From assembly GCA_947561715.1 (NCBI GenBank), contig OX387197.1:15559001-15623000 (forward strand): a stretch of DNA of 64,000 nucleotides. Direction: 5' to 3'. Source of the stretch: Ascidia mentula. Taxonomy: Eukaryota; Chordata; Ascidiacea; Phlebobranchia; Ascidiidae. Below, in pieces: positions 1 to 62,977 of the stretch. Under the pieces are notes generated by a model. The model saw only the letters and a program-made list of their open reading frames with translations, was not told where the DNA came from and made no database searches. Both the position numbers and the translations under genes were made by a program. The stretch's first letter is position 1. Each line of letters begins with the position of its first letter.

Positions 1-10
1 CCCAAGCCCA

Positions 11-63
11 CTTAACAATGGGAGACATAGGCTGGACTCTGTTTTTTTCGAGCCCCAAGCCCA
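11..63 (+). repeat. Representative module A (53 bp, short core, long linker)
   Basis: The body is that of module B, but it ends in the 15-base linker CGAGCCCCAAGCCCA instead of the 9-base one, which adds 6 bp. Runs of two or three A modules occur in the left 46.5 kb and break the regular 127-bp period there. I did not see A modules to the right of about 46.53 kb. Confidence 0.92.
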
Positions 64-618
64 CTTAACAATGGGCGACATAGGCTGGACTCTGTTTTTT
101 TCGCGACCAACTTAACAATGGGCGAGATAGGGCCGAAGTTAAGACTGGGTGGGATAGGCTGGACTCTGTTTTTTTCGAGCCCCAAGCCCACTTAACAATG
201 GGACACATAGGCTGGACTCTGTTTTTTTCGCGACCCACTTAACAATGGGCGAGATAGGGCCGAAGTTAAGACTGGGTGGGATAGGCTGGACTCTGTTTTT
301 TTCGAGCCCCAAGCCCACTTAACAATGGGAGACATAGGCTGGACTCTGTTTTCTTCGCGACCCACTTAACAATGGGCGAGATAGGGCCGAAGTTAAGACT
401 GGGTGGGATAGGCTGGACTCTGTTTTTTTCGAGCCCCAAGCCCACTTAACAATGGGAGACATAGGCTGGACTCTGTTTTTTTCGCGACCCACTTAACAAT
501 GGGCGAGATAGGGCCGAAGTTAAGACTGGGTGGGATAGGCTGGACTCTGTTTTTTTCGAGCTCCAAGCCCACTTAACAATGGGAGACATAGGCTGGACTC
601 TGTTTTTTTCACGACCCA

Positions 619-662
619 CTTAACAATGGGCGAGATAGGGCCTCGGTTTTCTTCGCGACCCA
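619..662 (+). repeat. Representative module D (44 bp, 30-bp deletion derivative of C')
   Basis: The module reads GGGCGAGATAGGGC and then jumps directly to CTCGGTTTTCTTCGCG, skipping 30 bases of the C' module from CGAAG to CTGGA. A sister form reads CTCTG at the junction, as the deletion predicts, so CTCGG looks like a later T-to-G change. Nearly every copy is preceded by a B module ending in CACGACCCA rather than CGCGACCCA. D copies occur at 0.6-12.2 kb and 21.1-40.5 kb only. Confidence 0.9.
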
Positions 663-1103
663 CTTAACAATGGGCGAGATAGGGCCGAAGTTAAGACTGG
701 GTGGGATAGGCTGGACTCTGTTTTTTTCGAGCCCCAAGCCCACTTAACAATGGGAGACATAGGCTGGACTCTGTTTTCTTCGCGACCCACTTAACAATGG
801 GCGAGATAGGGCCGAAGTTAAGACTGGGTGGGATAGGCTGGACTCTGTTTTTTTCGAGCCCCAAGCCCACTTAACAATGGGCGACATAGGCTGGACTCTG
901 TTTTTTTCGAGCCCCAAGCCCACTTAACAATGGGAGACATAGGCTGGACTCTGTTTTTTTCGAGCCCCAAGCCCACTGAACAATGGGAGACATAGGCTTG
1001 ACTCTGTTTTTTTCGCGACCCACTTAACAATGGGCGAGATAGGGCCGAAGTTAAGACTGGGTGGGATAGGCTGGACTCTGTTTTTTTCGAGCCCCAAGCC
1101 CAC

Positions 1104-1971
1104 TTAACAATGGGAGACATAGGCTGGACTCTGTATTTTTCGCGACCCACTTAACAATGGGCGAGATAGGGCCGAAGTTAAGACTGGGTGGGATAGGCTG
1201 GACTCTGTTTTCTTCGCGACCCACTTAACAATGGTCGAGATAGGGCCGAAGTTAAGACTGGGTGGGATAGGCTGGACTCTGTTTTTTTCGAGCCCCAAGC
1301 CCACTTAACAATGGGCGACATAGGCTGGACTCTGTTTTTTTCGAGCCCCAAGCCCACTTAACAATGGGAGACATAGGCTGGACTCTGTTTTTTTCGAGCC
1401 CCAAGCCCACTTAACAATGGGCGACATAGGCTGGACTCTGTTTTTTTCGCGACCAACTTAACAATGGGCGAGATAGGGCCGAAGTTAAGACTGGGTGGGA
1501 TAGGCTGGACTCTGTTTTTTTCGAGCCCCAAGCCCACTTAACAATGGGAGACATAGGCTGGACTCTGTATTTTTCGCGACCCACTTAACAATGGGCGAGA
1601 TAGGGCCGAAGTTAAGACTGGGTGGGATAGGCTGGACTCTGTTTTCTTCGCGACCCACTTAACAATGGTCGAGATAGGGCCGAAGTTAAGACTGGGTGGG
1701 ATAGGCTGGACTCTGTTTTTTTCGAGCCCCAAGCCCACTTAACAATGGGCGACATAGGCTGGACTCTGTTTTTTTCGAGCCCCAAGCCCACTTAACAATG
1801 GGAGACATAGGCTGGACTCTGTTTTTTTCGAGCCCCAAGCCCACTTAACAATGGGCGACATAAGCTGGACTCTGTTTTTTTCGCGACCAACTTAACAATG
1901 GGCGAGATAGGGCCGAAGTTAAGACTGGGTGGGATAGGCTGGACTCTGTTTTTTTCGAGCCCCAAGCCCAC
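1104..1971. repeat. 434-bp tandem duplication within the satellite
   Basis: Bases 1,104-1,537 and 1,538-1,971 match with an offset of 434. Both carry the private variant CTGTATTTTT (near 1,131 and 1,565), absent elsewhere as far as I read. The 434 bp decompose as B+C'+C+A+A+B+C (47+74+80+53+53+47+80). One difference seen is ATAAGCTGG near 1,862. This segment is the 'head' of longer higher-order units found further right. Confidence 0.88.
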
Positions 1972-2739
1972 TTAACAATGGGACACATAGGCTGGACTCT
2001 GTTTTTTTCGCGACCCACTTAACAATGGGCGAGATAGGGCCGAAGTTAAGACTGGGTGGGATAGGCTGGACTCTGTTTTTTTCGAGCCCCAAGCCCACTT
2101 AACAATGGGCGACATAGGCTGGACTCTGTTTTTTTCGAGCCCCAAGCCCACTTAACAATGGGAGACATAGGCTGGACTCTGTTTTTTTCGAGCCCCAAGC
2201 CCACTTAACAATGGGCGACATAGGCTGGACTCTGTTTTTTTCGCGACCAACTTAACAATGGGCGAGATAGGGCCGAAGTTAAGACTGGGTGGGATAGGCT
2301 GGACTCTGTTTTTTTCGAGCCCCAAGCCCACTTAACAATGGGAGACATAGGCTGGACTCTGTTTTTTTCGCGACCCACTTAACAATGGGCGAGATAAGGC
2401 CGAAGTTAAGACTGGGTGGGATAGGCTGGACTCTGTTTTTTTCGAGCCCCAAGCCCACTTAACAATGGGAGACATAGGCTGGACTCTGTTTTTTTCGCGA
2501 CCCACCTAACAATGGGCGAGATAAGGCCGAAGTTAAGACTGGGTGGGATAGGCTGGACTCTGTTTTTTTCGAGCCCCAAGCCCACTTAACAATGGGAGAC
2601 ATAGGCTGGACTCTGTTTTTTTCGCGACCCACTTAACAATGGGCGAGATAAGGCCGAAGTTAAGACTGGGTGGGATAGGCTGGACTCTGTTTTTTTCGAG
2701 CCCCAAGCCCACTTAACAATGGGAGACATAGGCTGGACT

Positions 2740-4234
2740 CTGTTTTTTTCGAGCCCCAAGCCCACTTAACAATGGGAGACATAGGCTGGACTCTGTTTTT
2801 TTCGAGCCCCAAGCCCACTTAACAATGGGAGACATAGGCTTGACTCTGTTTTTTTCGCGACCCACTTAACAATGGGCGAGATAGGGCCGAAGTTAAGACT
2901 GGGTGGGATAGGCTGGACTCTGTTTTTTTCGAGCCCCAAGCCCACTTAACAATGGGAGACATAGGCTGGACTCTGTTTTTTTCGCGACCCACTTAACAAT
3001 GGGCGAGATAGGGCCGAAGTTAAGACTGGGTGGGATAGGCTGGACTCTGTTTTCTTCGCGACCCACTTAACAATGGTCGAGATAGGGCCGAAGTTAAGAC
3101 TGGGTGGGATAGGCTGGACTCTGTTTTTTTTCGAGCCCCAAGCCCACTTAACAATGGGCGACATAGGCTGGACTCTGTTTTTTTCGAGCCCCAAGCCCAC
3201 TTAACAATGGGAGACATAGGCTGGACTCTGTTTTTTTCGAGCCCCAAGCCCACTTAACAATGGGCGACATAGGCTGGACTCTGTTTTTTTCGCGACCAAC
3301 TTAACAATGGGCGAGATAGGGCCGAAGTTAAGACTGGGTGGGATAGGCTGGACTCTGTTTTTTTCGAGCCCCAAGCCCACTTAACAATGGGACACATAGG
3401 CTGGACTCTGTTTTTTTCGCGACCCACTTAACAATGGGCGAGATAGGGCCGAAGTTAAGACTGGGTGGGATAGGCTGGACTCTGTTTTTTTCGAGCCCCA
3501 AGCCCACTTAACAATGGGCGACATAGGCTGGACTCTGTTTTTTTCGAGCCCCAAGCCCACTTAACAATGGGAGACATAGGCTGGACTCTGTTTTTTTCGA
3601 GCCCCAAGCCCACTTAACAATGGGCGACATAGGCTGGACTCTGTTTTTTTCGCGACCAACTTAACAATGGGCGAGATAGGGCCGAAGTTAAGACTGGGTG
3701 GGATAGGCTGGACTCTGTTTTTTTCGAGCCCCAAGCCCACTTAACAATGGGAGACATAGGCTGGACTCTGTTTTTTTCGCGACCCACTTAACAATGGGCG
3801 AGATAAGGCCGAAGTTAAGACTGGGTGGGATAGGCTGGACTCTGCTTTTTTCGCGACCCACTTAACAATGGGCGAGATAGGGCCGAAGTTAAGACTGGGT
3901 GGGATAGGCTGGACTCTGTTTTTTTCGAGCCCCAAGCCCACTTAACAATGGGAGACATAGGCTGGACTCTGTTTTTTTCGCGACCCACTTAACAATGGGC
4001 GAGATAGGGCCGAAGTTAAGACTGGGTGGGATAGGCTGGACTCTGTTTTTTTCGAGCCCCAAGCCCACTTAACAATGGGACACATAGGCTGGACTCTGTT
4101 TTTTTCGCGACCCACTTAACAATGGGCGAGATAGGGCCGAAGTTAAGACTGGGTGGGATAGGCTGGACTCTGTTTTTTTCGAGCCCCAAGCCCACTTAAC
4201 AATGGGAGACATAGGCTGGACTCTGTTTTTTTCA
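2740..4234. repeat. Copy 1 of a ~1.5-kb higher-order block (offset 2,714)
   Basis: This block matches about 5,454-6,948 at a constant offset of 2,714. Shared markers include a T8 tract near 3,124, CTGCTTTTTTCGCG near 3,842 and a GGACACATAGG module near 4,078. The match fails on the left where an A module faces a C module, and on the right where a CACGACC/D pair faces a normal B/C pair. Edges are estimated by eye. Confidence 0.8.
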
Positions 4235-5453
4235 CGACCCACTTAACAATGGGCGAGATAGGGCCTCGGTTTTCTTCGCGACCCACTTAACAATGGGCGA
4301 GATAGCGCCGAAGTTAAGACTGGGTGGGATAGGCTGGACTCTGTTTTTTTCGAGCCCCAAGCCCACTTAACAATGGGAGACATAGGCTGGACTCTGTTTT
4401 CTTCGCGACCCACTTAACAATGGGCGAGATAGGGCCGAAGTTAAGACTGGGTGGGATAGGCTGGACTCTGTTTTTTTCGAGCCCCAAGCCCACTTAACAA
4501 TGGGCGACATAGGCTGGACTCTGTTTTTTTCGAGCCCCAAGCCCACTTAACAATGGGAGACATAGGCTGGACTCTGTTTTTTTCGAGCCCCAAGCCCACT
4601 TAACAATGGGAGACATAGGCTTGACTCTGTTTTTTTCGCGACCCACTTAACAATGGGCGAGATAGGGCCGAAGTTAAGACTGGGTGGGATAGGCTGGACT
4701 CTGTTTTTTTCGAGCCCCAAGCCCACTTAACAATGGGAGACATAGGCTGGACTCTGTTTTTTTCGCGACCCACTTAACAATGGGCGAGATAGGGCCGAAG
4801 TTAAGACTGGGTGGGATAGGCTGGACTCTGTTTTCTTCGCGACCCACTTAACAATGGTCGAGATAGGGCCGAAGTTAAGACTGGGTGGGATAGGCTGGAC
4901 TCTGTTTTTTTCGAGCCCCAAGCCCACTTAACAATGGGACACATAGGCTGGACTCTGTTTTTTTCGCGACCCACTTAACAATGGGCGAGATAGGGCCGAA
5001 GTTAAGACTGGGTGGGATAGGCTGGACTCTGTTTTTTTCGAGCCCCAAGCCCACTTAACAATGGGAGACATAGGCTGGACTCTGTTTTTTTCGCGACCCA
5101 CTTAACAATGGGCGAGATAAGGCCGAAGTTAAGACTGGGTGGGATAGGCTGGACTCTGTTTTTTTCGAGCCCCAAGCCCACTTAACAATGGGACACATAG
5201 GCTGGACTCTGTTTTTTTCACGACCCACTTAACAATGGGCGAGATAGGGCCTCGGTTTTCTTCGCGACCCACTTAACAATGGGCGAGATAGCGCCGAAGT
5301 TAAGACTGGGTGGGATAGGCTGGACTCTGTTTTTTTCGAGCCCCAAGCCCACTTAACAATGGGAGACATAGGCTGGACTCTGTTTTCTTCGCGACCCACT
5401 TAACAATGGGCGAGATAGGGCCGAAGTTAAGACTGGGTGGGATAGGCTGGACT

Positions 5454-6948
5454 CTGTTTTTTTCGAGCCCCAAGCCCACTTAACAATGGGCGACATAGGC
5501 TGGACTCTGTTTTTTTCGAGCCCCAAGCCCACTTAACAATGGGAGACATAGGCTGGACTCTGTTTTTTTCGCGACCCACTTAACAATGGGCGAGATAGGG
5601 CCGAAGTTAAGACTGGGTGGGATAGGCTGGACTCTGTTTTTTTCGAGCCCCAAGCCCACTTAACAATGGGAGACATAGGCTGGACTCTGTTTTTTTCGCG
5701 ACCCACTTAACAATGGGCGAGATAGGGCCGAAGTTAAGACTGGGTGGGATAGGCTGGACTCTGTTTTCTTCGCGACCCACTTAACAATGGTCGAGATAGG
5801 GCCGAAGTTAAGACTGGGTGGGATAGGCTGGACTCTGTTTTTTTTCGAGCCACAAGCCCACTTAACAATGGGCGACATAGGCTGGACTCTGTTTTTTTCG
5901 AGCCCCAAGCCCACTTAACAATGGGAGACATAGGCTGGACTCTGTTTTTTTCGAGCCCCAAGCCCACTTAACAATGGGCGACATAGGCTGGACTCTGTTT
6001 TTTTCGCGACCAACTTAACAATGGGCGAGATATGGCCGAAGTTAAGACTGGGTGGGATAGGCTGGACTCTGTTTTTTTCGAGCCCCAAGCCCACTTAACA
6101 ATGGGACACATAGGCTGGACTCTGTTTTTTTCGCGACCCACTTAACAATGGGCGAGATAGGGCCGAAGTTAAGACTGGGTGGGATAGGCTGGACTCTGTT
6201 TTTTTCGAGCCCCAAGCCCACTTAACAATGGGCGACATAGGCTGGACTCTGTTTTTTTCGAGCCCCAAGCCCACTTAACAATGGGAGACAAAGGCTGGAC
6301 TCTGTTTTTTTCGAGCCCCAAGCCCACTTAACAATGGGCGACATAGGCTGGACTCTGTTTTTTTCGCGACCAACTTAACAATGGGCGAGATAGGGCCGAA
6401 GTTAAGACTGGGTGGGATAGGCTGGACTCTCTTTTTTTCGAGCCCCAAGCCCACTTAACAATGGGAGACATAGGCTGGACTCTGTTTTTTTCGCGACCCA
6501 CTTAACAATGGGCGAGATAAGGCCGAAGTTAAGACTGGGTGGGATAGGCTGGACTCTGCTTTTTTCGCGACCCACTTAACAATGGGCGAGATAGGGCCGA
6601 AGTTAAGACTGGGTGGGATAGGCTGGACTCTGTTTTTTTCGAGCCCCAAGCCCACTTAACAATGGGAGACATAGGCTGGACTCTGTTTTTTTCGCGACCC
6701 ACTTAACAATGGGCGAGATAGGGCCGAAGTTAAGACTGGGTGGGATAGGCTGGACTCTGTTTTTTTCGAGCCCCAAGCCCACTTAACAATGGGACACATA
6801 GGCTGGACTCTGTTTTTTTCGCGACCCACTTAACAATGGGCGAGATAGGGCCGAAGTTAAGACTGGATGGGATAGGCTGGACTCTGTTTTTTTCGAGCCC
6901 TAAGCCCACTTAACAATGGGAGACATAGGCTGGACTCTGTTTTTTTCG
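5454..6948. repeat. Copy 2 of the ~1.5-kb block (offset 2,714)
   Basis: This is the partner of 2,740-4,234, with T8 near 5,838 and CTGCTTTTTT near 6,556. It differs at a few bases, such as GATATGGCC near 6,031, GACAAAGGC near 6,288 and GACTGGATGGG near 6,861. The two copies are not adjacent. The spacer 4,235-5,453 contains two D2-bearing segments offset by 986 bp that share the private variant GATAGCGCC (4,301 and 5,287). Confidence 0.8.
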
Positions 6949-7035
6949 CGACCCACTTAACAATGGGCGAGATAGGGCCGAAGTTAAGACTGGGTGGGAT
7001 AGGCTGGACTCTGTTTTTTTCGAGCCCCAAGCCCA

Positions 7036-7082
7036 CTTAACAATGGGAGACATAGGCTGGACTCTGTTTTTTTCGCGACCCA
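7036..7082 (+). repeat. Representative module B (47 bp, short core, short linker)
   Basis: This is the minimal module: CTTAACAATGGGAGACATAGG, then CTGGACTCTG, T7 and the short linker CGCGACCCA. The linker creates the palindrome TCGCGA in nearly every copy. Common variants read GGCGACATAGG or GGACACATAGG in place of GGAGACATAGG, CGCGACCAA at the linker, or TTTTCTT or T8 in place of T7. Each variant marks particular positions in the higher-order units. Confidence 0.95.
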
Positions 7083-7162
7083 CTTAACAATGGGCGAGAT
7101 AGGGCCGAAGTTAAGACTGGGTGGGATAGGCTGGACTCTGTTTTTTTCGAGCCCCAAGCCCA
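7083..7162 (+). repeat. Representative module C (80 bp, 27-bp insert plus long linker)
   Basis: This module equals module B plus two changes. A 27-bp block starting GCCGAAGTTAAG and ending GGGATAGG sits between the first GATAGG and CTGGACTCTG. The linker is 6 bp longer, CGAGCCCCAAGCCCA. The insert is therefore flanked by direct GATAGG copies. CTTAAC at the module start and GTTAAG inside the insert form a perfect 6-bp dyad separated by 21 bases. Common variants are GGGCTGAAG, GGGATGAAG, GATAAGGCC, GATATGGCC and GGTCGAG. Confidence 0.95.
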
Positions 7163-10100
7163 CTTAACAATGGGAGACATAGGCTGGACTCTGTTTTTTT
7201 CGCGACCCACTTAACAATAGGCGAGATAGGGCCGAAGTTAAGACTGGGTGGGATAGGCTGGACTCTGTTTTTTTCGAGCCCCAAGCCCACTTAACAATGG
7301 GAGACATAGGCTGGACTCTGTTTTTTTCGCGACCCACTTAACAATGGGCGAGATAGGGCCGAAGTTAAGACTGGGTGGGATAGGCTGGACTCTGTTTTTT
7401 TCGAGCCCCAAGCCCACTTAACAATGGGAGACATAGGCTGGACTCTGTTTTTTTCGCGACCCACTTAACAATGGGCGAGATAGGGCCGAAGTTAAGACTG
7501 GGTGGGATAGGCTGGACTCTGCTTTTTCCAGCCCCAAGCCCAGTTAACAATGGGAGACATAGGCTGGACTCTGTTTTTTTCACGACCCACTTAACAATGG
7601 GCGAGATAGGGCCTCTGTTTTCTTCGCGACCCACTTAACAATGGGCGAGATAGGGCCGAAGTTAAGACTGGGTGGGATAGGCTGGACTCTGTTTTTTTCG
7701 AGCTCCAAGCCCACTTAACAATGGGAGACATAGGCTGGACTCTGTTTTGTTCACGACCCACTTAACAATGGGCGAGATAGGGCCTCGGTTTTCTTCGCGA
7801 CCCACTTAACAATGGGCGAGATAGGGCCGAAGTTAAGACTGGGTGGGATAGGCTGGACTCTGTTTTTTTCGAGCCCCAAGCCCACTTAACAATGGGAGAC
7901 ATAGGCTGGACTCTGTTTTCTTCGCGACCCACTTAACAATGGGCGAGATAGGGCCGAAGTTAAGACTGGGTGGGATAGGCTGGACTCTGTTTTTTTCGAG
8001 CCCCAAGCCCACTTAACAATGGGAGACATAGGCTGGACTCTGTTTTTTTCACGACCCACTTAACAATGGGCGAGATAGGGCCTCTGTTTTCTTCGCGACC
8101 CACTTAACAATGGGCGAGATAGGGCCGAAGTTAAGACTGGGTGGGATAGGCTGGACTCTGTTTTTTTCGAGCCCCAAGCCCACTTAACAATGGGAGACAT
8201 AGGCTGGACTCTGTTTTCTTCGCGACCCACTTAACAATGGGCGAGATAGGGCCGAAGTTAAGACTGGGTGGGATAGGCTGGACTCTGTTTTTTTCGAGCC
8301 CCAAGCCCACTTAACAATGGGCGACATAGGCTGGACTCTGTTTTTTTCGAGCCCCAAGCCCACTTAACAATGGGAGACATAGGCTGGACTCTGTTTTTTT
8401 CGCGACCCACTTAACAATGGGCGAGATAGGGCCGAAGTTAAGACTGGGTGGGATAGGCTGGACTCTGTTTTTTTCGAGCCCCAAGCCCACTTAACAATGG
8501 GAGACATAGGCTGGACTCTGTTTTTTTCGCGACCCACTTAACAATGGGCGAGATAGGGCCGAAGTTAAGACTGGGTGGGATAGGCTGGACTCTGTTTTCT
8601 TCGCGACCCACTTAACAATGGTCGAGATAGGGCCGAAGTTAAGACTGGGTGGGATAGGCTGGACTCTGTTTTTTTCGAGCCCCAAGCCCACTTAACAATG
8701 GGCGACATAGGCTGGACTCTGTTTTTTTCGAGCCCCAAGCCCACTTAACAATGGGAGACATAGGCTGGACTCTGTTTTTTTCGAGCCCCAAGCCCACTTA
8801 ACAATGGGCGACATAGGCTGGACTCTGTTTTTTTCGCGACCAACTTAACAATGGGCGAGATAGGGCCGAAGTTAAGACTGGGTGGGATAGGCTGGACTCT
8901 GCTTTTTTCGCGACCCACTTAACAATGGGCGAGATAGGGCCGAAGTTAAGACTGGGTGGGATAGGCTGGACTCTGTTTTTTTCGAGCCCCAAGCCCACTT
9001 AACAATGGGAGACATAGGCTGGACTCTGTTTTTTTCGCGACCCACTTAACAATGGGCGAGATAGGGCCGAAGTTAAGACTGGGTGGGATAGGCTGGACTC
9101 TGTTTTTTTCGAGCCCCAAGCCCACTTAACAATGGGACACATAGGCTGGACTCTGTTTTTTTCGCGACCCACTTAACAATGGGCGAGATAGGGCCGAAGT
9201 TAAGACTGGATGGGATAGGCTGGACTCTGTTTTTTTCGAGCCCTAAGCCCACTTAACAATGGGAGACATAGGCTGGACTCTGTTTTTTTCGCGACCCACT
9301 TAACAATGGGCGAGATAGGGCCGAAGTTAAGACTGGGTGGGATAGGCTGGACTCTGTTTTTTTCGAGCCCCAAGCCCACTTAACAATGGGAGACATAGGC
9401 TGGACTCTGTTTTTTTCGCGACCCACTTAACAATGGGCGAGATAGGGCCGAAGTTAAGACTGGGTGGGATAGGCTGGACTCTGTTTTTTTCGAGCCCCAA
9501 GCCCACTTAACAATGGGAGACATAGGCTGGACTCTGTTTTTTTCGCGACCCACTTAACAATAGGCGAGATAGGGCCGAAGTTAAGACTGGGTGGGATAGG
9601 CTGGACTCTGTTTTTTTCGAGCCCCAAGCCCACTTAACAATGGGAGACATAGGCTGGACTCTGTTTTTTTCGCGACCCACTTAACAATGGGCGAGATAGG
9701 GCCGAAGTTAAGACTGGGTGGGATAGGCTGGACTCTGTTTTTTTCGAGCCCCAAGCCCACTTAACAATGGGAGACATAGGCTGGACTCTGTTTTTTTCGC
9801 GACCCACTTAACAATGGGCGAGATAGGGCCGAAGTTAAGACTGGGTGGGATAGGCTGGACTCTGCTTTTTCCAGCCCCAAGCCCAGTTAACAATGGGAGA
9901 CATAGGCTGGACTCTGTTTTTTTCACGACCCACTTAACAATGGGCGAGATAGGGCCTCTGTTTTCTTCGCGACCCACTTAACAATGGGCGAGATAGGGCC
10001 GAAGTTAAGACTGGGTGGGATAGGCTGGACTCTGTTTTTTTCGAGCTCCAAGCCCACTTAACAATGGGAGACATAGGCTGGACTCTGTTTTGTTCACGAC

Positions 10101-12299
10101 CCACTTAACAATGGGCGAGATAGGGCCTCGGTTTTCTTCGCGACCCACTTAACAATGGGCGAGATAGGGCCGAAGTTAAGACTGGGTGGGATAGGCTGGA
10201 CTCTGTTTTTTTCGAGCCCCAAGCCCACTTAACAATGGGAGACATAGGCTGGACTCTGTTTTCTTCGCGACCCACTTAACAATGGGCGAGATAGGGCCGA
10301 AGTTAAGACTGGGTGGGATAGGCTGGACTCTGTTTTTTTCGAGCCCCAAGCCCACTTAACAATGGGAGACATAGGCTGGACTCTGTTTTTTTCACGACCC
10401 ACTTAACAATGGGCGAGATAGGGCCTCTGTTTTCTTCGCGACCCACTTAACAATGGGCGAGATAGGGCCGAAGTTAAGACTGGGTGGGATAGGCTGGACT
10501 CTGTTTTTTTCGAGCCCCAAGCCCACTTAACAATGGGAGACATAGGCTGGACTCTGTTTTCTTCGCGACCCACTTAACAATGGGCGAGATAGGGCCGAAG
10601 TTAAGACTGGGTGGGATAGGCTGGACTCTGTTTTTTTCGAGCCCCAAGCCCACTTAACAATGGGCGACATAGGCTGGACTCTGTTTTTTTCGAGCCCCAA
10701 GCCCACTTAACAATGGGAGACATAGGCTGGACTCTGTTTTTTTCGCGACCCACTTAACAATGGGCGAGATAGGGCCGAAGTTAAGACTGGGTGGGATAGG
10801 CTGGACTCTGTTTTTTTCGAGCCCCAAGCCCACTTAACAATGGGAGACATAGGCTGGACTCTGTTTTTTTCGCGACCCACTTAACAATGGGCGAGATAGG
10901 GCCGAAGTTAAGACTGGGTGGGATAGGCTGGACTCTGTTTTCTTCGCGACCCACTTAACAATGGTCGAGATAGGGCCGAAGTTAAGACTGGGTGGGATAG
11001 GCTGGACTCTGTTTTTTTCGAGCCCCAAGCCCACTTAACAATGGGCGACATAGGCTGGACTCTGTTTTTTTCGAGCCCCAAGCCCACTTAACAATGGGAG
11101 ACATAGGCTGGACTCTGTTTTTTTCGAGCCCCAAGCCCACTTAACAATGGGCGACATAGGCTGGACTCTGTTTTTTTCGCGACCAACTTAACAATGGGCG
11201 AGATAGGGCCGAAGTTAAGACTGGGTGGGATAGGCTGGACTCTGTTTTTTTCGAGCCCTAAGCCCACTTAACAATGGGAGACATAGGCTGGACTCTGTTT
11301 TTTTCGAGCCCTAAGCCCACTTAACAATGGGAGACATAGGCTGGACTCTGTTTTTTTCGCGACCCACTTAACAATGGGCGAGATAGGGCCGAAGTTAAGA
11401 CTGGGTGGGATAGGCTGGACTCTGTTTTTTTCGAGCCCCAAGCCCACTTAACAATGGGAGACATAGGCTGGACTCTGTTTTTTTCGCGACCCACTTAACA
11501 ATGGGCGAGATAGGGCCGAAGTTAAGACTGGGTGGGATAGGCTGGACTCTGTTTTTTTCGAGCCCCAAGCCCACTTAACAATGGGAGACATAGGCTGGAC
11601 TCTGTTTTTTTCGCGACCCACTTAACAATGGGCGAGATAGGGCCGAAGTTAAGACTGGGTGGGATAGGCTGGACTCTGTTTTTTTCGAGCCCCAAGCCCA
11701 CTTAACAATGGGAGACATAGGCTGGACTCTGTTTTTTTCGCGACCCACTTAACAATGGGCGAGATAGGGCCGAAGTTAAGACTGGGTGGGATAGGCTGGA
11801 CTCTGTTTTTTTCGAGCCCCAAGCCCACTTAACAATGGGAGACATAGGCTGGACTCTGTTTTTTTCGCGACCCACTTAACAATGGGCGAGATAGGGCCGA
11901 AGTTAAGACTGGGTGGGATAGGCTGGACTCTGCTTTTTCCAGCCCCAAGCCCAGTTAACAATGGGAGACATAGGCTGGACTCTGTTTTTTTCACGACCCA
12001 CTTAACAATGGGCGAGATAGGGCCTCTGTTTTCTTCGCGACCCACTTAACAATGGGCGAGATAGGGCCGAAGTTAAGACTGGGTGGGATAGGCTGGACTC
12101 TGTTTTTTTCGAGCTCCAAGCCCACTTAACAATGGGAGACATAGGCTGGACTCTGTTTTGTTCACGACCCACTTAACAATGGGCGAGATAGGGCCTCGGT
12201 TTTCTTCGCGACCCACTTAACAATGGGCGAGATAGGGCCGAAGTTAAGACTGGGTGGGATAGGCTGGACTCTGTTTTTTTCGAGCCCCAAGCCCACTTA

Positions 12300-35000: not shown

Positions 35001-35264
35001 AATGGGCGAGATAGGGCCGAAGTTAAGACTGGGTGGGATAGGCTGGACTCTGTTTTTTTCGAGCCCCAAGCCCACTTAACAATGGGAGACATAGGCTGGA
35101 CTCTGTTTTTTTCGCGACCCACTTAACAATGGGCGAGATAGGGCCGAAGTTAAGACTGGGTGGGATAGGCTGGACTCTGTTTTTTTCGAGCCCCAAGCCC
35201 ACTTAACAATGGGAGACATAGGCTGGACTCTGTTTTTTTCGCGACCCACTTAACAATGGGCGAG

Positions 35265-46380: not shown

Positions 46381-47519
46381 GGATAGGCTGGACTCTGTTT
46401 TTTTCGAGCCCCAAGCCCACTTAACAATGGGAGACATAGGCTGGACTCTGTTTTTTTCGAGCCCCAAGCCCACTTAACAATGGGAGACATAGGCTGGACT
46501 CTGTTCTTTTCGAGCCCCAAGCCCACTTAACAATGGGAGACATAGGCTGGACTCTGTTTTTTTTCGCGACCCACTTAACAATGGGCGAGATAGGGCCGAA
46601 GTTAAGACTGGGTGGGATAGGCTGGACTCTGTTCTTTTCGAGCCCCAAGCCCACTTAACAATGGGAGACATAGGCTGGACTCTGTTTTTTTCGCGACCCA
46701 CTTAACAATGGGCGAGATAGGGCCGAAGTTAAGACTGGGTGGGATAGGCTGGACTCTATTTTTTTCGAGCCCCAAGCCCACTTAACAATGGGAGACATAG
46801 GCTGGACTCTGTTTTTTTTCGCGACCCACTTAACAATGGGCGAGATAGGGCCGAAGTTAAGACTGGGTGGGATAGGCTGGACTCTGTTTTTTTCGAGCCC
46901 CAAGCCCACTTAACAATGGGAGACATAGGCTGGACTCTGTTTTTTTCGCGACCCACTTAACAATGGGCGAGATAGGGCTGAAGTTAAGACTGGGTGGGAT
47001 AGGCTGGACTCTATTTTTTTCGAGCCCCAAGCCCACTTAACAATGGGAGACATAGGCTGGACTCTGTTTTTTTTCGCGACCCACTTAACAATGGGCGAGA
47101 TAGGGCCGAAGTTAAGACTGGGTGGGATAGGCTGGACTCTGTTCTTTTCGAGCCCCAAGCCCACTTAACAATGGGAGACATAGGCTGGACTCTGTTTTTT
47201 TCGCGACCCACTTAACAATGGGCGAGATAGGGCTGAAGTTAAGACTGGGTGGGATAGGCTGGACTCTATTTTTTTCGAGCCCCAAGCCCACTTAACAATG
47301 GGAGACATAGGCTGGACTCTGTTTTTTTCGCGACCCACTTAACAATGGGCGAGATAGGGCCGAAGTTAAGACTGGGTGGGATAGGCTGGACTCTGTTCTT
47401 TTCGAGCCCCAAGCCCACTTAACAATGGGAGACATAGGCTGGACTCTGTTTTTTTCGCGACCCACTTAACAATGGGCGAGATAGGGCCGAAGTTAAGACT
47501 GGGTGGGATAGGCTGGACT

Positions 47520-48030
47520 CTGTTTTTTTCGAGCCCCAAGTCCACTTAACAATGGGAGTCATAGGCTGGACTCTGTTTTTTTCGCGACCCACTTAACAAT
47601 GAGCGAGATAGGGCTGAAGTTAAGACTGGGTGGGATAGGCTGGACTCTGTTCTTTTCGAGCCGCAAGCCCACTTAACAATGGGAGACATAGGCTGGACTC
47701 TGTTTTTTTCGCGACCCACTTAACAATGGGCGAGATAGGGCCGAAGTTAAGACTGGGTGGGATAGGCTGGACTCTGTTTTTTTCGAGCCCCAAGTCCACT
47801 TAACAATGGGAGTCATAGGCTGGACTCTGTTTTTTTCGCGACCCACTTAACAATCAGCGAGATAGGGCTGAAGTTAAGCCTGGGTGGGATAGGCTGGACT
47901 CTGTTCTTTTCGAGCCGCAAGCCCACTTAACAATGGGAGACATAGGCTGGACTCTGTTTTTTTCGCGACCCACTTAACAATGGGCGAGATAGGGCCGAAG
48001 TTAAGACTGGGTGGGATAGGCTGGACACTA
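47520..48030. repeat. Two-dimer (254-bp) tandem duplication with GAGTCATAGG marker
   Basis: CCAAGTCCAC with GGAGTCATAGG occurs near 47,541 and 47,795, and CGAGCCGCAAGCC near 47,658 and 47,912, both 254 apart. The same marker set reappears near 49.32, 59.36 and 60.76 kb, so this small haplotype has been copied to distant parts of the array. Confidence 0.82.
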
Positions 48031-51000: not shown

Positions 51001-53699
51001 AGGCTGGACTCTGTTTTTTTCGCGACCCACTTAACAATGGGCGAGATAGGGCTGAAGTTACGACTGGGTGGGATAGGCTGGACTCTGTTTTTTTCGAGCC
51101 CCAAGCCCACTTAACAATGGGAGACATAGGCTGGACTCTGTTTTTTTCGCGACCCACTTAACAATGAGCGAGATAGGGATGAAGTTAAGACTGGGTGGGA
51201 TAGGCTGGACTCTGTTTTTTTCGAGCCCCAAGCCCACTTAACAATGGGAGACATAGGCTGGACTCTGTTTTTTTCGCGACCCACTTAACAATGGGCGAGA
51301 TAGGGCTGAAGTTAAGACTGGGTGGGATAGGCTGGACTCTGTTTTTTTCGAGCCCCAAGCCCACTTAACAATGGGAGACATAGGCTGGACTCTGTTTTTT
51401 TCGCGACCCACTTAACAATGGGCGAGATAGGGCTGAAGTTAAGACTGGGTGGGATAGGCTGGACTCTGTTTTTTTCGAGCCCCAAGCCCACTTAACAATG
51501 GGAGACATAGGCTGGACTCTGTTTTTTTCGCGACCCACTTAACAATAGGCGAGATAGGGCTGAAGTTAAGACTGGGTGGGATAGGCTGGACTCTGTTTTT
51601 TTCGAGCCCCAAGCCCACTTAACAATGGGAGACATAGGCTGGACTCTGTTTTTTTCGCGACCCACTTAACAATGGGCGAGATAGGGCCGAAGTTAAGACT
51701 GGGTGGGATAGGCTGGACTCTGTTTTTTTCGAGCCCCAAGCCCACTTAACAATGGGAGACATAGGCTGGACTCTGTTTTTTTCGCGACCCACTTAACAAT
51801 GAGCGAGATAGGGATGAAGTTAAGACTGGGTGGGATAGGCTGGACTCTGTTTTTTTCGAGCCCCAAGCCCACTTAAAATTGGGAGACATAGGCTGGACTC
51901 TGTTTTTTTCGCGACCCACTTAACAATGGGCGAGATAGGGCCGAAGTTAAGACTGGGTGGGATAGGCTGGACTCGGTTCTTTTCGAGCCCCAAGCCCACT
52001 TAACAATGGGAGACATAGGCTGGACTCTGTTTTTTTCGCGACCCACTTAACAATGGGCGAGATAGGGCCGAAGTTAAGACTGGGTGGGATAGGCTGGACT
52101 CTGTCTTTTTCGAGCCCCAAGCCCACTTAACAATGGGAGACATAGGCTGGACTCTGTTTTTTTCGCGACCCACTTAACAATGGGCGAGATAGGGCCGAAG
52201 TTAAGACTGGGTGGGATAGGCTGGACTCTGTTTTTTTCGAGCCCCAAGCCCACTTAACAATGGGAGACATAGGCTGGACTCTGTTTTTTTCGCGACCCAC
52301 TTAACAATGGGGGAGATAGGGCCGAAGTTAAGACTGGGTGGGATAGGCTGGACTCTGTTCTTTTCGAGCCCCAAACCCACTTAACAATGGGAGACATAGG
52401 CTGGACTCTGTTTTTTTCGCGACCCACTTAACAATTGGCGAGATAGGGCCGAAGTTAAGACTGGGTGGGATAGGCTGGACTCTGTTTTTTTCGAGCCCCA
52501 AGCCCACTTAACAATGGGAGACATAGGCTGGACTCTGTTTTTTTCGCGACCCACTTAACAATGGGCGAGATAGGGCTGAAGTTAAGACTGGGTGGGATAG
52601 GCTGGACTCTGTTTTTTTCGAGCCCCAAGCCCACTTAACAATGGGAGACATAGGCTGGACTCTGTTTTTTTCGCGACCCACTTAACAATGGGCGAGATAG
52701 GGCCGAAGTTAAGACTGGGTGGGATAGGCTGGACTTTATTTTTTTCGAGCCCCAAGCCCACTTAACAATGGGAGACATAGGCTGGACTCTGTTTTTTTTC
52801 GCGACCCACTTAACAATGGGCGAGATAGGGCCGAAGTTAAGACTGGGTGGGATAGGCTGGACTCTGTTTTTTTCGAGCCCCAAGCCCACTTAACAATGGG
52901 AGACATAGGCTGGACTCTGTTTTTTTCGCGACCCACTTAACAATGGGCGAGATAGGGCCGAAGTTAAGACTGGGTGGGATAGGCTGGACTCTGTTTTTTT
53001 CGAGCCCCAAGCCCACTTAACAATGGGAGACATAGGCTGGACTCTGTTTTTTTCGCGACCCACTTAACAATGGGCGAGATAGGGCTGAAGTTAAGACTGG
53101 GTGGGATAGGCTGGACTCTGTTTTTTTCGAGCCCCAAGCCCACTTAACAATGGGAGACATAGGCTGGACTCTGTTTTTTTCGCGACCCACTTAACAATGG
53201 GCGAGATAGGGCCGAAGTTAAGACTGGGTGGGATAGGCTGGACTCTATTTTTTTCGAGCCCCAAGCCCACTTAACAATGGGAGACATAGGCTGGACTCTG
53301 TTTTTTTTCGCGACCCACTTAACAATGGGCGAGATAGGGCCGAAGTTAAGACTGGGTGGGATAGGCTGGACTCTGTTTTTTTCGAGCCCCAAGCCCACTT
53401 AACAATGGGAGACATAGGCTGGACTCTGTTTTTTTCGCGACCCACTTAACAATGGGCGAGATAGGGCTGAAGTTAAGACTGGGTGGGATAGGCTGGACTC
53501 TGTTTTTTTCGAGCCCCAAGCCCACTTAACAATGGGAGACATAGGCTGGACTCTGTTTTTTTCGCGACCCACTTAACAATGGGCGAGATAGGGCCGAAGT
53601 TAAGACTGGGTGGGATAGGCTGGACTCTGTTCTTTTCGAGCCCCAAGCCCACTTAACAATGGGAGACATAGGCTGGACTCTGTTTTTTTCGCGACCCAC

Positions 53700-55000
53700 T
53701 TAACAATGAGCGAGATAGGGATGAAGTTAAGACTGGGTGGGATAGGCTGGACTCTGTTTTTTTCGAGCCCCAAGCCCACTTAACAATGGGAGACATAGGC
53801 TGGACTCTGTTTTTTTCGCGACCCACTTAACAATGGGCGAGATAGGGCTGAAGTTAAGACTGGGTGGGATAGGCTGGACTCTGTTTTTTTCGAGCCCCAA
53901 GCCCACTTAACAATGGGAGACATAGGCTGGACTCTGTTTTTTTCGCGACCCACTTAACAATGAGCGAGATAGGGATGAAGTTAAGACTGGGTGGGATAGG
54001 CTGGACTCTGTTTTTTTCGAGCCCCAAGCCCACTTAACAATGGGAGACATAGGCTGGACTCTGTTTTTTTCGCGACCCACTTAACAATGGGCGAGATAGG
54101 GCTGAAGTTAAGACTGGGTGGGATAGGCTGGACTCTGTTTTTTTCGAGCCCCAAGCCCACTTAACAATGGGAGACATAGGCTGGACTCTGTTTTTTTCGC
54201 GACCCACTTAACAATGGGCGAGATAGGGCCGAAGTTAAGACTGGGTGGGATAGGCTGGAATCTTTTTTTCGAGCCCCAAGCCCACTTAACAATGGGAGAC
54301 ATAGGCTGGACTCTGTTTTTTTCGCGACCCACTTAACAATGAGCGAGATAGGGATGAAGTTAAGACTGGGTGGGATAGGCTGGACTCTGTTTTTTTCGAG
54401 CCCCAAGCCCACTTAACAATGGGAGACATAGGCTGGACTCTGTTTTTTTCGCGACCCACTTAACAATGGGCGAGATAGGGCCGAAGTTAAGACTGGGTGG
54501 GATAGGCTGGACTCGGTTCTTTTCGAGCCCCAAGCCCACTTAACAATGGGAGACATAGGCTGGACTCTGTTTTTTTCGCGACCCACTTAACAATGGGCGA
54601 GATAGGGCCGAAGTTAAGACTGGGTGGGATAGGCTGGACTCTGTTTTTTTCGAGCCCCAAGCCCACTTAACAATGGGAGACATAGGCTGGACTCTGTTTT
54701 TTTCGCGACCCACTTAACAATGGGCGAGATAGGGCTGAAGTTAAGACTGGGTGGGATAGGCTGGACTCTGTTTTTTTCGAGCCCCAAGCCCACTTAACAA
54801 TGGGAGACATAGGCTGGACTCTGTTTTTTTCGCGACCCACTTAACAATGGGCGAGATAGGGCCGAAGTTAAGACTGGGTGGGATAGGCTGGAATCTTTTT
54901 TTCGAGCCCCAAGCCCACTTAACAATGGGAGACATAGGCTGGACTCTGTTTTTTTCGCGACCCACTTAACAATGAGCGAGATAGGGATGAAGTTAAGACT
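53700..55000. repeat. Tandem duplication of five dimers (633 bp)
   Basis: The odd C module GGCTGGAATC followed by seven T (near 54,254 and 54,887) and the GGGATGAAG marker (near 53,721, 54,354 and 54,987) repeat at 633. Five dimers would be 635; the two missing bases are explained by the shortened GGAATC module present in each unit. Confidence 0.84.
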
Positions 55001-58000
55001 GGGTGGGATAGGCTGGACTCTGTTTTTTTCGAGCCCCAAGCCCACTTAACAATGGGAGACATAGGCTGGACTCTGTTTTTTTCGCGACCCACTTAACAAT
55101 GGGCGAGATAGGGCCGAAGTTAAGACTGGGTGGGATAGGCTGGACTCTGTTTTTTTCGAGCCCCAAGCCCACTTAACAATGGGAGACATAGGCTGGACTC
55201 TGTTTTTTTCGCGTCCCACTTAACAATGGGCGAGATAGGGCCGAAGTTAAGACTGGGTGGGATAGGCTGGACTCGGTTCTTTTCGAGCCCCAAGCCCACT
55301 TAACAATGGGAGACATAGGCTGGACTCTGTTTTTTTCGCGACCCACTTAACAATGGGCGAGATAGGGCCGAAGTTAAGACTGGGTGGGATAGGCTGGACT
55401 CTATTTTTTCGAGCCCCAAGCCCACTTAACAATGGGAGACATAGGCTGGACTCTGTTTTTTTTCGCGACCCACTTAACAATGGGCGAGATAGGGCCGAAG
55501 TTAAGACTGGGTGGGATAGGCTGGACTCTGTTCTTTTCGAGCCCCAAGCCCACTTAACAATGGGAGACATAGGCTGGACTCTGTTTTTTTCGCGACCCAC
55601 TTAACAATGGGCGAGATAGGGCCGAAGTTAAGACTGGGTGGGATAGGCTGGACTCTATTTTTTTCGAGCCCCAAGCCCACTTAACAATGGGAGACATAGG
55701 CTGGACTCTGTTTTTTTTCGCGACCCACTTAACAATGGGCGAGATAGGGCCGAAGTTAAGACTGGGTGGGATAGGCTGGACTCTGTTTTTTTCGAGCCCC
55801 AAGCCCACTTAACAATGGGAGACATAGGCTGGACTCTGTTTTTTTCGCGACCCACTTAACAATGAGCGAGATAGGGATGAAGTTAAGACTGGGTGGGATA
55901 GGCTGGACTCTGTTTTTTTCGAGCCCCAAGCCCACTTAACAATGGGAGACATAGGCTGGACTCTGTTTTTTTCGCGACCCACTTAACAATGGGCGAGATA
56001 GGGCCGAAGTTAAGACTGGGTGGGATAGGCTGGACTCGGTTCTTTTCGAGCCCCAAGCCCACTTAACAATGGGAGACATAGGCTGGACTCTGTTTTTTTC
56101 GCGACCCACTTAACAATGGGCGAGATAGGGCCGAAGTTAAGACTGGGTGGGATAGGCTGGACTCTGTTCTTTTCGAGCCCCAAGCCCACTTAACAATGGG
56201 AGACATAGGCTGGACTCTGTTTTTTTTCGCGACCCACTTAACAATGGGCGAGATAGGGCCGAAGTTAAGACTGGGTGGGATAGGCTGGACTCTGTTTTTT
56301 TCGAGCCCCAAGCCCACTTAACAATGGGAGACATAGGCTGGACTCTGTTTTTTTCGCGACCCACTTAACAATGGGCGAGATAGGGCTGAAGTTAAGACTG
56401 GGTGGGATAGGCTGGACTCTGTTTTTTACGAGCCCCAAGCCCACTTAACAATGGGAGACATAGGCTGGACTCTGTTTTTTTCGCGACCCACTTAACAATG
56501 GGCGAGATAGGGCCGAAGTTAAGACTGGGTGGGATAGGCTGGACTCTGTTTTTTTCGAGCCCCAAGCCCACTTAACAATGGGAGACATAGGCTGGACTCT
56601 GTTTTTTTCGCGACCCACTTAACAATGAGCGAGATAGGGATGAAGTTAAGACTGGGTGGGATAGGCTGGACTCTGTTTTTTTCGAGCCCCAAGCCCACTT
56701 AACAATGGGAGACATAGGCTGGACTCTGTTTTTTTCGCGACCCACTTAACAATGGGCGAGATAGGGCTGAAGTTAAGACTGGGTGGGATAGGCTGGACTC
56801 TGTTTTTTTCGAGCCCCAAGCCCACTTAACAATGGGAGACATAGGCTGGACTCTGTTTTTTTCGCGACCCACTTAACAATGGGCGAGATAGGGCCGAAGT
56901 TAAGACTGGGTGGGATAGGCTGGACTCTGTTTTTTTCGAGCCCCAAGCCCACTTAACAATGGGAGACATAGGCTGGACTCTGTTTTTTTCGCGACCCACT
57001 TAACAATGAGCGAGATAGGGATGAAGTTAAGACTGGGTGGGATAGGCTGGACTCTGTTTTTTTCGAGCCCCAAGCCCACTTAACAATGGGAGACATAGGC
57101 TGGACTCTGTTTTTTTCGCGACCCACTTAACAATGGGCGAGATAGGGCCGAAGTTAAGACTGGGTGGGATAGGCTGGACTCGGTTCTTTTCGAGCCCCAA
57201 GCCCACTTAACAATGGGAGACATAGGCTGGACTCTGTTTTTTTCGCGACCCACTTAACAATGGGCGAGATAGGGCCGAAGTTAAGACTGGGTGGGATAGG
57301 CTGGACTCTGTTTTTTTCGAGCCCCAAGCCCACTTAACAATGGGAGACATAGGCTGGACTCTGTTTTTTTCGCGACCCACTTAACAATGGGCGAGATAGG
57401 GCCGAAGTTAAGACTGGGTGGGATAGGCTGGACTCTGTTTTTTTCGAGCCCCAAGCCCACTTAATAATGGGAGACATAGGCTGGACTCTGTTTTTTTCGC
57501 GACCCACTTAACAATGGGCGAGATAGGGCCGAAGTTAAGACTGGGTGGGATAGGCTGGACTCTGTTTTTTTCGAGCCCCAAGCCCACTTAACAATGGGAG
57601 ACATAGGCTGGACTCTGTTTTTTTCGCGACCCACTTAACAATGGGCGAGATAGGGCCGAAGTTAAGACTGGGTGGGATAGGCTGGACTCTGTTTTTTTCG
57701 AGCCCCAAGCCCACTTAACAATGGGAGACATAGGCTGGACTCTGTTTTTTTCGCGACCCACTTAACAATGGGCGAGATAGGGCCGAAGTTAAGACTGGGT
57801 GGGATAGGCTGGACTCTGTTTTTTTCGAGCCCCAAGCCCACTTAACAATGGGAGACATAGGCTGGACTCTGTTTTTTTCGCGACCCACTTAACAATGGGC
57901 GAGATAGGGCCGAAGTTAAGACTGGGTGGGATAGGCTGGACTCTATTTTTTTCGAGCCCCAAGCCCACTTAACAATGGGAGACATAGGCTGGACTCTGTT

Positions 58001-58417
58001 TTTTTTCGCGACCCACTTAACAATGGGCGAGATAGGGCCGAAGTTAAGACTGGGTGGGATAGGCTGGACTCTGTTTTTTTCGAGCCCCAAGCCCACTTAA
58101 CAATGGGAGACATAGGCTGGACTCTGTTTTTTTCGCGACCCACTTAACAATGGGCGAGATAGGGCTGAAGTTAAGACTGGGTGGGATAGGCTGGACTCTG
58201 TTTTTTTCGAGCCCCAAGCCCACTTAACAATGGGAGACATAGGCTGGACTCTGTTTTTTTCGCGACCCACTTAACAATGGGCGAGATAGGGCCGAAGTTA
58301 AGACTGGGTGGGATAGGCTGGACTCTGTTTTTTTCGAGCCCCAAGCCCACTTAACAATGGGAGACATAGGCTGGACTCTGTTTTTTTCGCGACCCACTTA
58401 ACAATGAGCGAGATAGG

Positions 58418-61211
58418 GATGAAGTTAAGACTGGGTGGGATAGGCTGGACTCTGTTTTTTTCGAGCCCCAAGCCCACTTAACAATGGGAGACATAGGCTG
58501 GACTCTGTTTTTTTCGCGACCCACTTAACAATGGGCGAGATAGGGCTGAAGTTAAGACTGGGTGGGATAGGCTGGACTCTGTTTTTTTCGAGCCCCAAGC
58601 CCACTTAACAATGGGAGACATAGGCTGGACTCTGTTTTTTTCGCGACCCACTTAACAATGGGCGAGATAGGGCCGAAGTTAAGACTGGGTGGGATAGGCT
58701 GGACTCTGTTTTTTTCGAGCCCCAAGCCCACTTAACAATGGGAGACATAGGCTGGACTCTGTTTTTTTCGCGACCCACTTAACAATGGGCGAGATAGGGC
58801 TGAAGTTAAGACTGGGTGGGATAGGCTGGACTCTGTTTTTTTCGAGCCCCAAGCCCACTTAACAATGGGAGACATAGGCTGGACTCTGTTTTTTTCGCGG
58901 CCCACTTAACAATGGGCGAGATAGGGCTGAAGTTAAGACTGGGTGGGATAGGCTGGACTCTGTTTTTTTCGAGCCCCAAGCCCACTTAACAATGGGAGAC
59001 ATAGGCTGGACTCTGTTTTTTTCGCGACCCACTTAACAATGGGCGAGATAGGGCTGAAGTTAAGACTGGGTGGGATAGGATGGACTCTATTTTTTTCGAG
59101 CCCCAAGCCCACTTAACAATGGGAGACATAGGCTGGACTCTGTTTTTTTTCGCGACCCACTTAACAATGGGCGAGATAGGGCCGAAGTTAAGACTGGGTG
59201 GGATAGGCTGGACTCTGTTCTTTTCGAGCCCCAAGCCCACTTAACAATGGGAGACATAGGCTGGACTCTGTTTTTTTCGCGACCCACTTAACAATGGGCG
59301 AGATAGGGCCGAAGTTAAGACTGGGTGGGATAGGCTGGACTCTGTTTTTTTCGAGCCCCAAGTCCACTTAACAATGGGAGTCATAGGCTGGACTCTGTTT
59401 TTTTCGCGACCCACTTAACAATGAGCGAGATAGGGCTGAAGTTAAGACTGGGTGGGATAGGCTGGACTCTGTTCTTTTCGAGCCGCAAGCCCACTTAACA
59501 ATGGGAGACATAGGCTGGACTCTGTTTTTTTCGCGACCCACTTAACAATGGGCGAGATATGGCCGAAGTTAAGACTGGGTGGGATAGGCTGGACTCTATT
59601 TTTTCGAGCCCCAAGCCCACTTAACAATGGGAGACATAGGCTGGACTCTGTTTTTTTTCGCGACCCACTTAACAATGGGCGAGATAGGGCCGAAGTTAAG
59701 ACTGGGTGGGATAGGCTGGACTCTATTTTTTCGAGCCCCAAGCCCACTTAACAATGGGAGACATAGGCTGGACTCTGTTTTTTTCGCGACCCACTTAACA
59801 ATGGGCGAGATAGGGATGAAGTTAAGACTGGGTGGGATAGGCTGGACTCTGTTTTTTTCGAGCCCCAAGCCCACTTAACAATGGGAGACATAGGCTGGAC
59901 TCTGTTTTTTTCGCGACCCACTTAACAATGGGCGAGATAGGGCTGAAGTTAAGACTGGGTGGGATAGGCTGGACTCTGTTTTTTTCGAGCCCCAAGCCCA
60001 CTTAACAATGGGAGACATAGGCTGGACTCTGTTTTTTTCGCGACCCACTTAACAATGGGCGAGATAGGGCCGAAGTTAAGACTGGGTGGGATAGGCTGGA
60101 CTCTGTTTTTTTCGAGCCCCAAGCCCACTTAACAATGGGAGACATAGGCTGGACTCTGTTTTTTTCGCGACCCACTTAACAATGGGCGAGATAGGGCTGA
60201 AGTTAAGACTGGGTGGGATAGGCTGGACTCTGTTTTTTTCGAGCCCCAAGCCCACTTAACAATGGGAGACATAGGCTGGACTCTGTTTTTTTCGCGGCCC
60301 ACTTAACAATGGGCGAGATAGGGCTGAAGTTAAGACTGGGTGGGATAGGCTGGACTCTGTTTTTTTCGAGCCCCAAGCCCACTTAACAATGGGAGACATA
60401 GGCTGGACTCTGTTTTTTTCGCGACCCACTTAACAATGGGCGAGATAGGGCTGAAGTTAAGACTGGGTGGGATAGGATGGACTCTATTTTTTTCGAGCCC
60501 CAAACCCACTTAACAATGGGAGACATAGGCTGGACTCTGTTTTTTTTCGCGACCCACTTAACAATGGGCGAGATAGGGCCGAAGTTAAGACTGGGTGGGA
60601 TAGGCTGGACTCTGTTCTTTTCGAGCCCCAAGCCCACTTAACAATGGGAGACATAGGCTGGACTCTGTTTTTTTCGCGACCCACTTAACAATGGGCGAGA
60701 TAGGGCCGAAGTTAAGACTGGGTGGGATAGGCTGGACTCTGTTTTTTTCGAGCCCCAAGTCCACTTAACAATGGGAGTCATAGGCTGGACTCTGTTTTTT
60801 TCGCGACCCACTTAACAATGAGCGAGATAGGGCTGAAGTTAAGACTGGGTGGGATAGGCTGGACTCTGTTCTTTTCGAGCCGCAAGCCCACTTAACAATG
60901 GGAGACATAGGCTGGACTCTGTTTTTTTCGCGACCCACTTAACAATGGGCGAGATATGGCCGAAGTTAAGACTGGGTGGGATAGGCTGGACTCTATTTTT
61001 TCGAGCCCCAAGCCCACTTAACAATGGGAGACATAGGCTGGACTCTGTTTTTTTTCGCGACCCACTTAACAATGGGCGAGATAGGGCCGAAGTTAAGACT
61101 GGGTGGGATAGGCTGGACTCTATTTTTTCGAGCCCCAAGCCCACTTAACAATGGGAGACATAGGCTGGACTCTGTTTTTTTCGCGACCCACTTAACAATG
61201 GGCGAGATAGG
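58418..61211. repeat. Tandem duplication of eleven dimers (1,397 bp) at the array edge
   Basis: Copies of about 58,418-59,814 and 59,815-61,211 share GGGATGAAG at their starts, CGCGGCCC (58,896 and 60,293), ATAGGATGGACTC (near 59,077 and 60,474), GGAGTCATAGG, AGCCGCAAGCC and GATATGGCC. The offset is 1,397, exactly 11 x 127. Differences are few, such as CAAACCC near 60,501. The block reaches to within about 70 bp of the end of the array. Confidence 0.88.
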
Positions 61212-61281
61212 GCCGAAGTTAAGACTGGGTGGGATAGGCTGGACTCTGTTCTTTTCGAGCCCCAAGCCCACTTAACAATGG

Positions 61282-61664: not shown

Positions 61665-61670
61665 ACAAAT

Positions 61671-62950: not shown

Positions 62951-62977
62951 TTTCGAAACAAAATTCGTTTACAAATG

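Follow-up and report, generated by a model that had tools for sequence, protein, structure and literature searches.

The window, by which we mean the whole stretch of 64,000 nucleotides analysed here (C1:15,559,001-15,623,000, on chromosome 1 of Ascidia mentula), contains a head-to-tail satellite built of two monomer types, termed alpha and beta, and the beginning of an insertion that interrupts it (Table 1). The genome comprises 195.84 Mb in 79 contigs, and C1 is 27.92 Mb long.

Modules were defined over window positions 11-61281 by cutting at the 11-mer anchor CTTAACAATGG with up to two mismatches allowed. The exact anchor is present at 927 sites on the forward strand of the window and at none on the other; with up to two mismatches, 980 sites were found, giving 979 modules. 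A sequence-only reading had described this array as a grammar of five words, namely a 47-bp core to which a 27-bp insert and a 6-bp extension of the linker could be added, each being optional, plus a 44-bp deletion form. The discrete, modular lengths that it claimed were borne out. In total, 922 of the 979 modules are exactly 44 (n = 29), 47 (386), 53 (91), 74 (33) or 80 bp (383) long, and 975 are within 2 bp of these values, the near-class lengths being 48 (27), 78 (2), 79 (21) and 81 bp (3). A broad length distribution, which the same reading had named as incompatible with its proposal, was looked for and did not occur among the 979 modules. The four off-class modules measure 56 bp, 120 bp (anchor lost), 127 bp (anchor mutated) and 280 bp (containing a 200-N gap). 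Identical length classes were obtained when the sample was widened to 12 array segments in both orientations, about 203 kb in all with the window included, where additional lengths of 45 bp (51 times) and 54 bp (four times) appeared. Modules of modal length average approximately 99% identity to the consensus of their own class and therefore chance is no issue for the module lengths.

The insert and the linker extension, in contrast to what had been proposed, do not combine independently. When classes were assigned by length, leaving out the 44-bp modules (delta) and three unparsed modules, the window contained 409 modules with insert and long linker, 33 with insert and short linker, 92 without insert but with long linker and 413 with neither, whereas independence would give 234, 208, 267 and 238, respectively (odds ratio 56, Fisher p 8e-131). 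A single 47-bp core carrying two independent optional segments, a 27-bp insert and a 6-bp linker extension, does predict the presence of all four length classes. It is at odds, however, with an association of this strength and with a linker that is nearly determined by the neighbouring body. This model was rejected, being refuted by the linker rule described in the following, and we attach practically no credence to it.

For the analysis of linkers, the type of each body was read from the 11 bases that follow the anchor, and that of each linker from its sequence; pairs touching the three unparsed modules were left out, which gave 972 pairs in the window. The long linker was followed by a GAGACATAGG-type body in 498 out of 498 cases and the short linker by a GCGAGATAGGG-type body in 471 out of 474. 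The linker is thus not an option of its own module, as had been assumed, but goes with the body of the next one (969 of 972 pairs). Across the 203 kb the rule holds for 3,202 of 3,207 typed pairs, with 8 more pairs having an untyped side, and the linker shares 0.98 bit of mutual information with the body that comes after it versus 0.24 bit with that of its own module (n = 3,205). Since the linker follows the next body, a cut placed before the linker yields two monomers, alpha of 53 bp and beta of 74 bp.

With these monomers, the length classes are junctions: alpha-alpha gives 53 bp, alpha-beta 47 bp, beta-beta 74 bp and beta-alpha 80 bp. All four classes exist, as had been noted, but represent four monomer junctions rather than two independent options. 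Given the two-letter string and the linker rule, the predicted length is exact for 917 of 972 modules and correct to within 2 bp for 969; the modules that fail are the three given as exceptions in Table 1. The original cut lies inside the monomers and, hence, the 2x2 table above is a count of neighbour pairs in a two-letter string; the apparent grammar results from the place at which a two-monomer satellite was cut. In place of five words, re-cutting leaves two, of 53 and 74 bp, plus delta of 44 bp as a deletion variant. The additivity of lengths, from which higher-order lengths were said to be computable, stands, but is expected of any array of intact monomers. Similarly, the discrete lengths do set the array apart from a satellite of one monomer length, yet it is a satellite nonetheless, with few monomer types and a higher-order structure. 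More generally, a dimeric satellite that is cut within its monomers looks like a combinatorial code, and a comparison of own versus next neighbour is a simple test for this artefact.

Table 1. Features of the window (position 1 is the first base of the 64,000 nucleotides).
Feature	Position	Strand	Remarks
Alpha/beta satellite array	1..61281	+	Right-hand part of a longer array, C1:15,430,918-15,620,281
Mixed zone	1..46519	+	AAA, BB and delta-beta blocks among alpha-beta
Alpha monomer, example	51..103	+	53 bp: long linker and body
Beta monomer, example	104..177	+	74 bp: short linker and body with putative 27-bp half-copy
First of 29 delta (44-bp) modules, cut at anchor	619..662	+	30-bp deletion of beta
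Linker-rule exception	23883..23929	+	Alpha-alpha with short linker
Linker-rule exception	26843		Alpha-alpha with short linker
Linker-rule exception	31165		Shortened beta
200-N gap	31866..32065	.	Inside array; module order across gap not established
Strict alternation zone	46520..61281	+	Alpha-beta, 232 modules, period 127 bp
Left arm of ~19-kb insertion	61282..64000	+	~350 bp, then 77-bp tandem repeats; not satellite

When each linker was counted as 13 or 7 bp according to its type, the 502 alpha monomers of the window are 53 bp (472), 54 bp (27) or 47 bp (3) long, while 415 of the 441 beta monomers have 74 bp and 26 have 72, 73 or 75 bp. Alpha of 50 or 51 bp, of which there is none in the window, makes up 55 of 1,668 in the 203 kb; it is a local variant outside the window and leaves the linker rule unaffected. 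Apart from a 27-bp indel, the body consensus of alpha matches that of beta at 38 of 40 positions. The 27-bp segment of beta is identical at 19 of 27 positions to the monomer's own GACCCACTTAACAATGGGCGAGATAGG, with a local-alignment score that was equalled by 10 out of 5,000 shuffles. This segment is likely, though not proven, to be the truncated remnant of an older monomer copy, an origin that rests on 27 bp.

The 44-bp form had been regarded as a shortened 47-bp core, but its consensus corresponds to the 74-bp module minus 30 bp. Among the 30 units called delta, 29 have 44 bp and the remaining one, of 56 bp, is a shortened beta. All 29 sit in the order alpha-delta-beta. The motif TTTTCTTC is present in each of them, in 21 of 33 first members of beta-beta pairs (BB), in 22 of 380 AB and in none of 408 BA. 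Because delta and the first members of BB have TTTTCTTC in common, the deletion probably arose in a beta-beta pair.

The alpha (A) and beta (B) runs in the window number 355 (A1), 19 (A2), 37 (A3), 377 (B1) and 33 (B2), in addition to the 29 delta and three unparsed modules. Alternation is broken for the last time at the junction of the module that starts at 46473. The 127-bp alpha-beta dimer is the base unit, or ground state, of the array, which also contains higher-order copies of several kb. Only 119 distinct module sequences, 59 of them singletons, were found among the 979. The longest exact repeat, with copies at 6575 and 8918, extends over 37 modules or 2,269 bp; it and further exact runs of 29, 28 and 27 modules are spaced by 1.4-2.5 kb, and the favoured lags step by 127 (688/815/942 and 4129/4256/4383). 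The 37 AAA blocks show the bases C-A-C in 25 cases and other combinations in 8, 2 and 2, and the linker CGACCAA occurs in 26 of them. The shared bases of the AAA blocks, together with the distribution of TTTTCTTC, point to few founders followed by copying in blocks, the pattern expected from unequal exchange and conversion and not from a free grammar. The array thus presents head-to-tail monomers over many kb, its 979 modules all lying on one strand. Differences between the two monomer types exceed those within either type, and near-identical multimonomer blocks recur, as in a dimeric satellite with higher-order organisation.

Against a structured RNA gene array, no Rfam family matched at gathering score in the window; there was likewise no such match in 13 flank and chance loci. 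Three open frames of at least 150 aa exist in the window, within repeats or across the gap, and were not taken as genes. T-tracts are spaced by 53, 74 and 127 bp, near 5, 7 and 12 helical turns of 10.5 bp, which we mention as an idea only.

We are fairly confident that these data reflect a dimeric higher-order satellite, presumably shaped by unequal exchange and block amplification, in a chromosome-1 block that may be centromeric or pericentromeric, and with no code-like function. If arrays exchanged with a shift of one monomer, alpha-alpha or beta-beta neighbours would arise; such exchange may have proceeded mostly via the 3' part common to both monomers, CTGGACTCTGTTTTTTTCG, which is the presumed exchange tract. 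As alpha and beta share this part, no hybrid would be visible at such joints. From a joint within the shared CTTAACAATGGG, a wrong linker would be expected, and wrong-linker pairs amount to at most 5 of 3,207 in the 203 kb. Block duplication and conversion could then have spread the few founders, i.e. AAA, BB and delta-beta.

The satellite begins at C1:15,430,918, where LINE sequence abuts, and was met at 15.95, 16.10, 16.20, 16.50, 17.00, 17.10, 17.25 and 17.40 Mb of C1, while none was present at 15.99 (LINE-related sequence), 17.52 and 17.60 Mb. Among the matches listed, variant copies extend to C1:17,503,547. The block therefore measures about 2.1 Mb and is interior, at 15.43-17.50 of 27.92 Mb or 55-63% of chromosome 1. 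Genome-wide, the exact anchor was counted 27,317 times (16,768 + 10,549) versus 102 for the reversed control; at an anchor density of about 154 per 10 kb (loci L020-L024) this corresponds to approximately 1.8 Mb of satellite. Three rare-variant patterns, which reveal only copies carrying the respective variant, gave 7 of 7, 66 of 66 and 100 of 100 listed copies (of 107) on C1, that is 173 of 173 listed, spanning 15.72-17.50 of 27.9 Mb; among these matches no copy lay outside C1. One further pattern was too common to discriminate, the first 100 of its 8,918 matches being on C1.

Five inverted array segments lie upstream of the window (C1:15,485,174-15,542,853). The inversion junctions at 15,513,042 and 15,519,069 read alike, as do those at 15,537,343 and 15,542,764. 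One orientation change coincides with a 200-N gap at C1 15,516,419 and may therefore be a scaffolding matter. This gap, together with that at window position 31866, is what could be held in favour of an assembly artefact, i.e. a short array falsely expanded or shuffled. Such an artefact is very improbable, however, given that the zones carry distinct variants, that the junction rule is valid throughout the 203 kb tested, and that the HiFi assembly, kaAscMent1.1, is reported with a QV of 64.9 (PMC11109543).

The array ends at 61281 at an insertion built of repeats. About 19 kb further on, near C1:15,639,269, it resumes with its orientation unchanged. The insertion (C1:15,620,282-15,639,268) consists of about 350 bp, 77-bp repeats, a 190-bp tandem array and 77-bp repeats in inverted orientation. 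Blocks of the 190-bp repeat were also found at 5.63 Mb of C1 and on C2, C52 and C69 (5 of 516 candidates scored), and the insertion is thus of a dispersed kind. Its left junction occurs again at C1:15,680,933. These two copies gave no support to the idea that the satellite is homogenised faster than the inserted element: the first 350 bp of the element are 97.7% and the adjoining satellite 98.0% identical, 12 random in-phase satellite pairs averaging 97.9%. The 77-bp repeat part of the two copies showed 93.6% identity, possibly being aligned out of register.

On its left, the array is bordered by non-LTR retrotransposons with endonuclease and reverse transcriptase domains. In a survey using one flanking element as query, with 40 scored of 230 candidates, 18 of the 40 matches were on chromosome 7 (C71:12,995,882-13,788,406) and 8 on C1 at 15.28-16.03 Mb, four of these inside the satellite block and four, the query among them, just left of it; a further 8 were scattered on C52. 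Between 13.05 and 13.70 Mb of C71, 7 of 8 sampled points matched the LINE or its non-coding repeats, and no satellite anchor (up to one mismatch) was present at any of these 8 points or at a ninth, at 13.85 Mb. The loci at C1:15.39-15.43 Mb (L038, L037, L036 and L019) are GC-rich (0.47-0.58, versus about 38-40% for the genome) and contain non-LTR elements with long frames and a 284-bp tandem repeat.

Judging from the interior place of the block, its size, its homogeneity and the LINEs that accompany it, we infer as the most likely reading, at roughly even chances, that it is heterochromatin in or around the centromere of chromosome 1. Centromeric satellites are commonly shared by the chromosomes of a set, although this is not required; no such sharing was seen for the 173 listed rare-variant copies. 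Scanning window positions 1-61281 on both strands, with up to two mismatches, for a CENP-B-box-like site gave no match. The lack of listed copies elsewhere and of a CENP-B-like box argues against a general centromere satellite. Also to be weighed against the centromeric or pericentromeric reading are the 9 sampled points of the chromosome 7 LINE island, none of which holds the satellite anchor, and the 8 of 40 scored LINE matches that are scattered on C52.

It is conceivable, if somewhat doubtful, that the array is a functional centromere satellite that carries CENP-A chromatin while other chromosomes use other DNA. The size and position of the block and the homogenised state of the array are in line with this, as is the piling up of the same LINE family at 12.99-13.79 Mb of chromosome 7, and chromosome-specific centromere repeats are described for a stick insect (PMC11691646). 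Opposed to it are the box-free window array, the confinement of the rare-variant matches listed to C1, and a LINE survey limited to 40 scored matches out of 230 candidates, 8 of them scattered on C52. Non-centromeric heterochromatin, such as a knob or a region linked to sex or to a supergene that expanded by drift on one chromosome, can be proposed tentatively; copies on a single chromosome, among the matches listed, and the inverted segments speak for it, but the interior position and the size would suit a centromere region equally. A further scenario, which we regard as unlikely, has islands of one LINE family as centromeres (12.99-13.79 Mb on chromosome 7), the satellite having arisen in such an island on chromosome 1 alone and grown there to about 2 Mb. 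If true, a satellite centromere would have been caught early in replacing a retroelement centromere.

The preferred reading, a dimeric satellite in a possibly centromeric or pericentromeric block, finds its closest kind in the dimeric primate alpha satellite, where A and B monomers, higher-order repeats, unequal crossing-over and conversion are described for SF1, SF2 and the irregular SF5 (PMC4585704). Both satellites alternate two monomer types and form higher-order repeats, and irregular stretches are found likewise in SF5 (PMC4585704). In contrast, the monomers of primate alpha satellite have 171 bp and include CENP-B boxes (PMC4585704), whereas those of Ascidia mentula are unequal, with 53 and 74 bp, and the window array is devoid of boxes. 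A second difference is that listed copies of the Ascidia mentula satellite are on one chromosome only. In Botryllus schlosseri, putative centromeric tandem repeats are described, with Bs3 at 16-17 Mb (PMC12448946); set beside our block by description, tandem repeats there too occupy a long stretch in the interior of an ascidian chromosome, a stretch that was called likely centromeric on account of its repeats. The clustering of non-LTR elements beside and inside the block resembles the Drosophila centromeres, described as having islands of retroelements (PMC6516634), although the LINE is a different one.

No description of this satellite was found in the mostly open-access literature, in which papers on Oikopleura and Botryllus mention centromeres; those pairing Ascidia mentula with satellite do not, judging by title and the start of the abstract, deal with its repeats. 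For tunicates, the satellite offers a clean array of two letters as well as a candidate centromere locus. As a side observation on the same assembly, COX1 is located on a 19,461-bp contig, and glycines at the conserved positions are obtained only if AGR is read as Gly, i.e. with the ascidian code.
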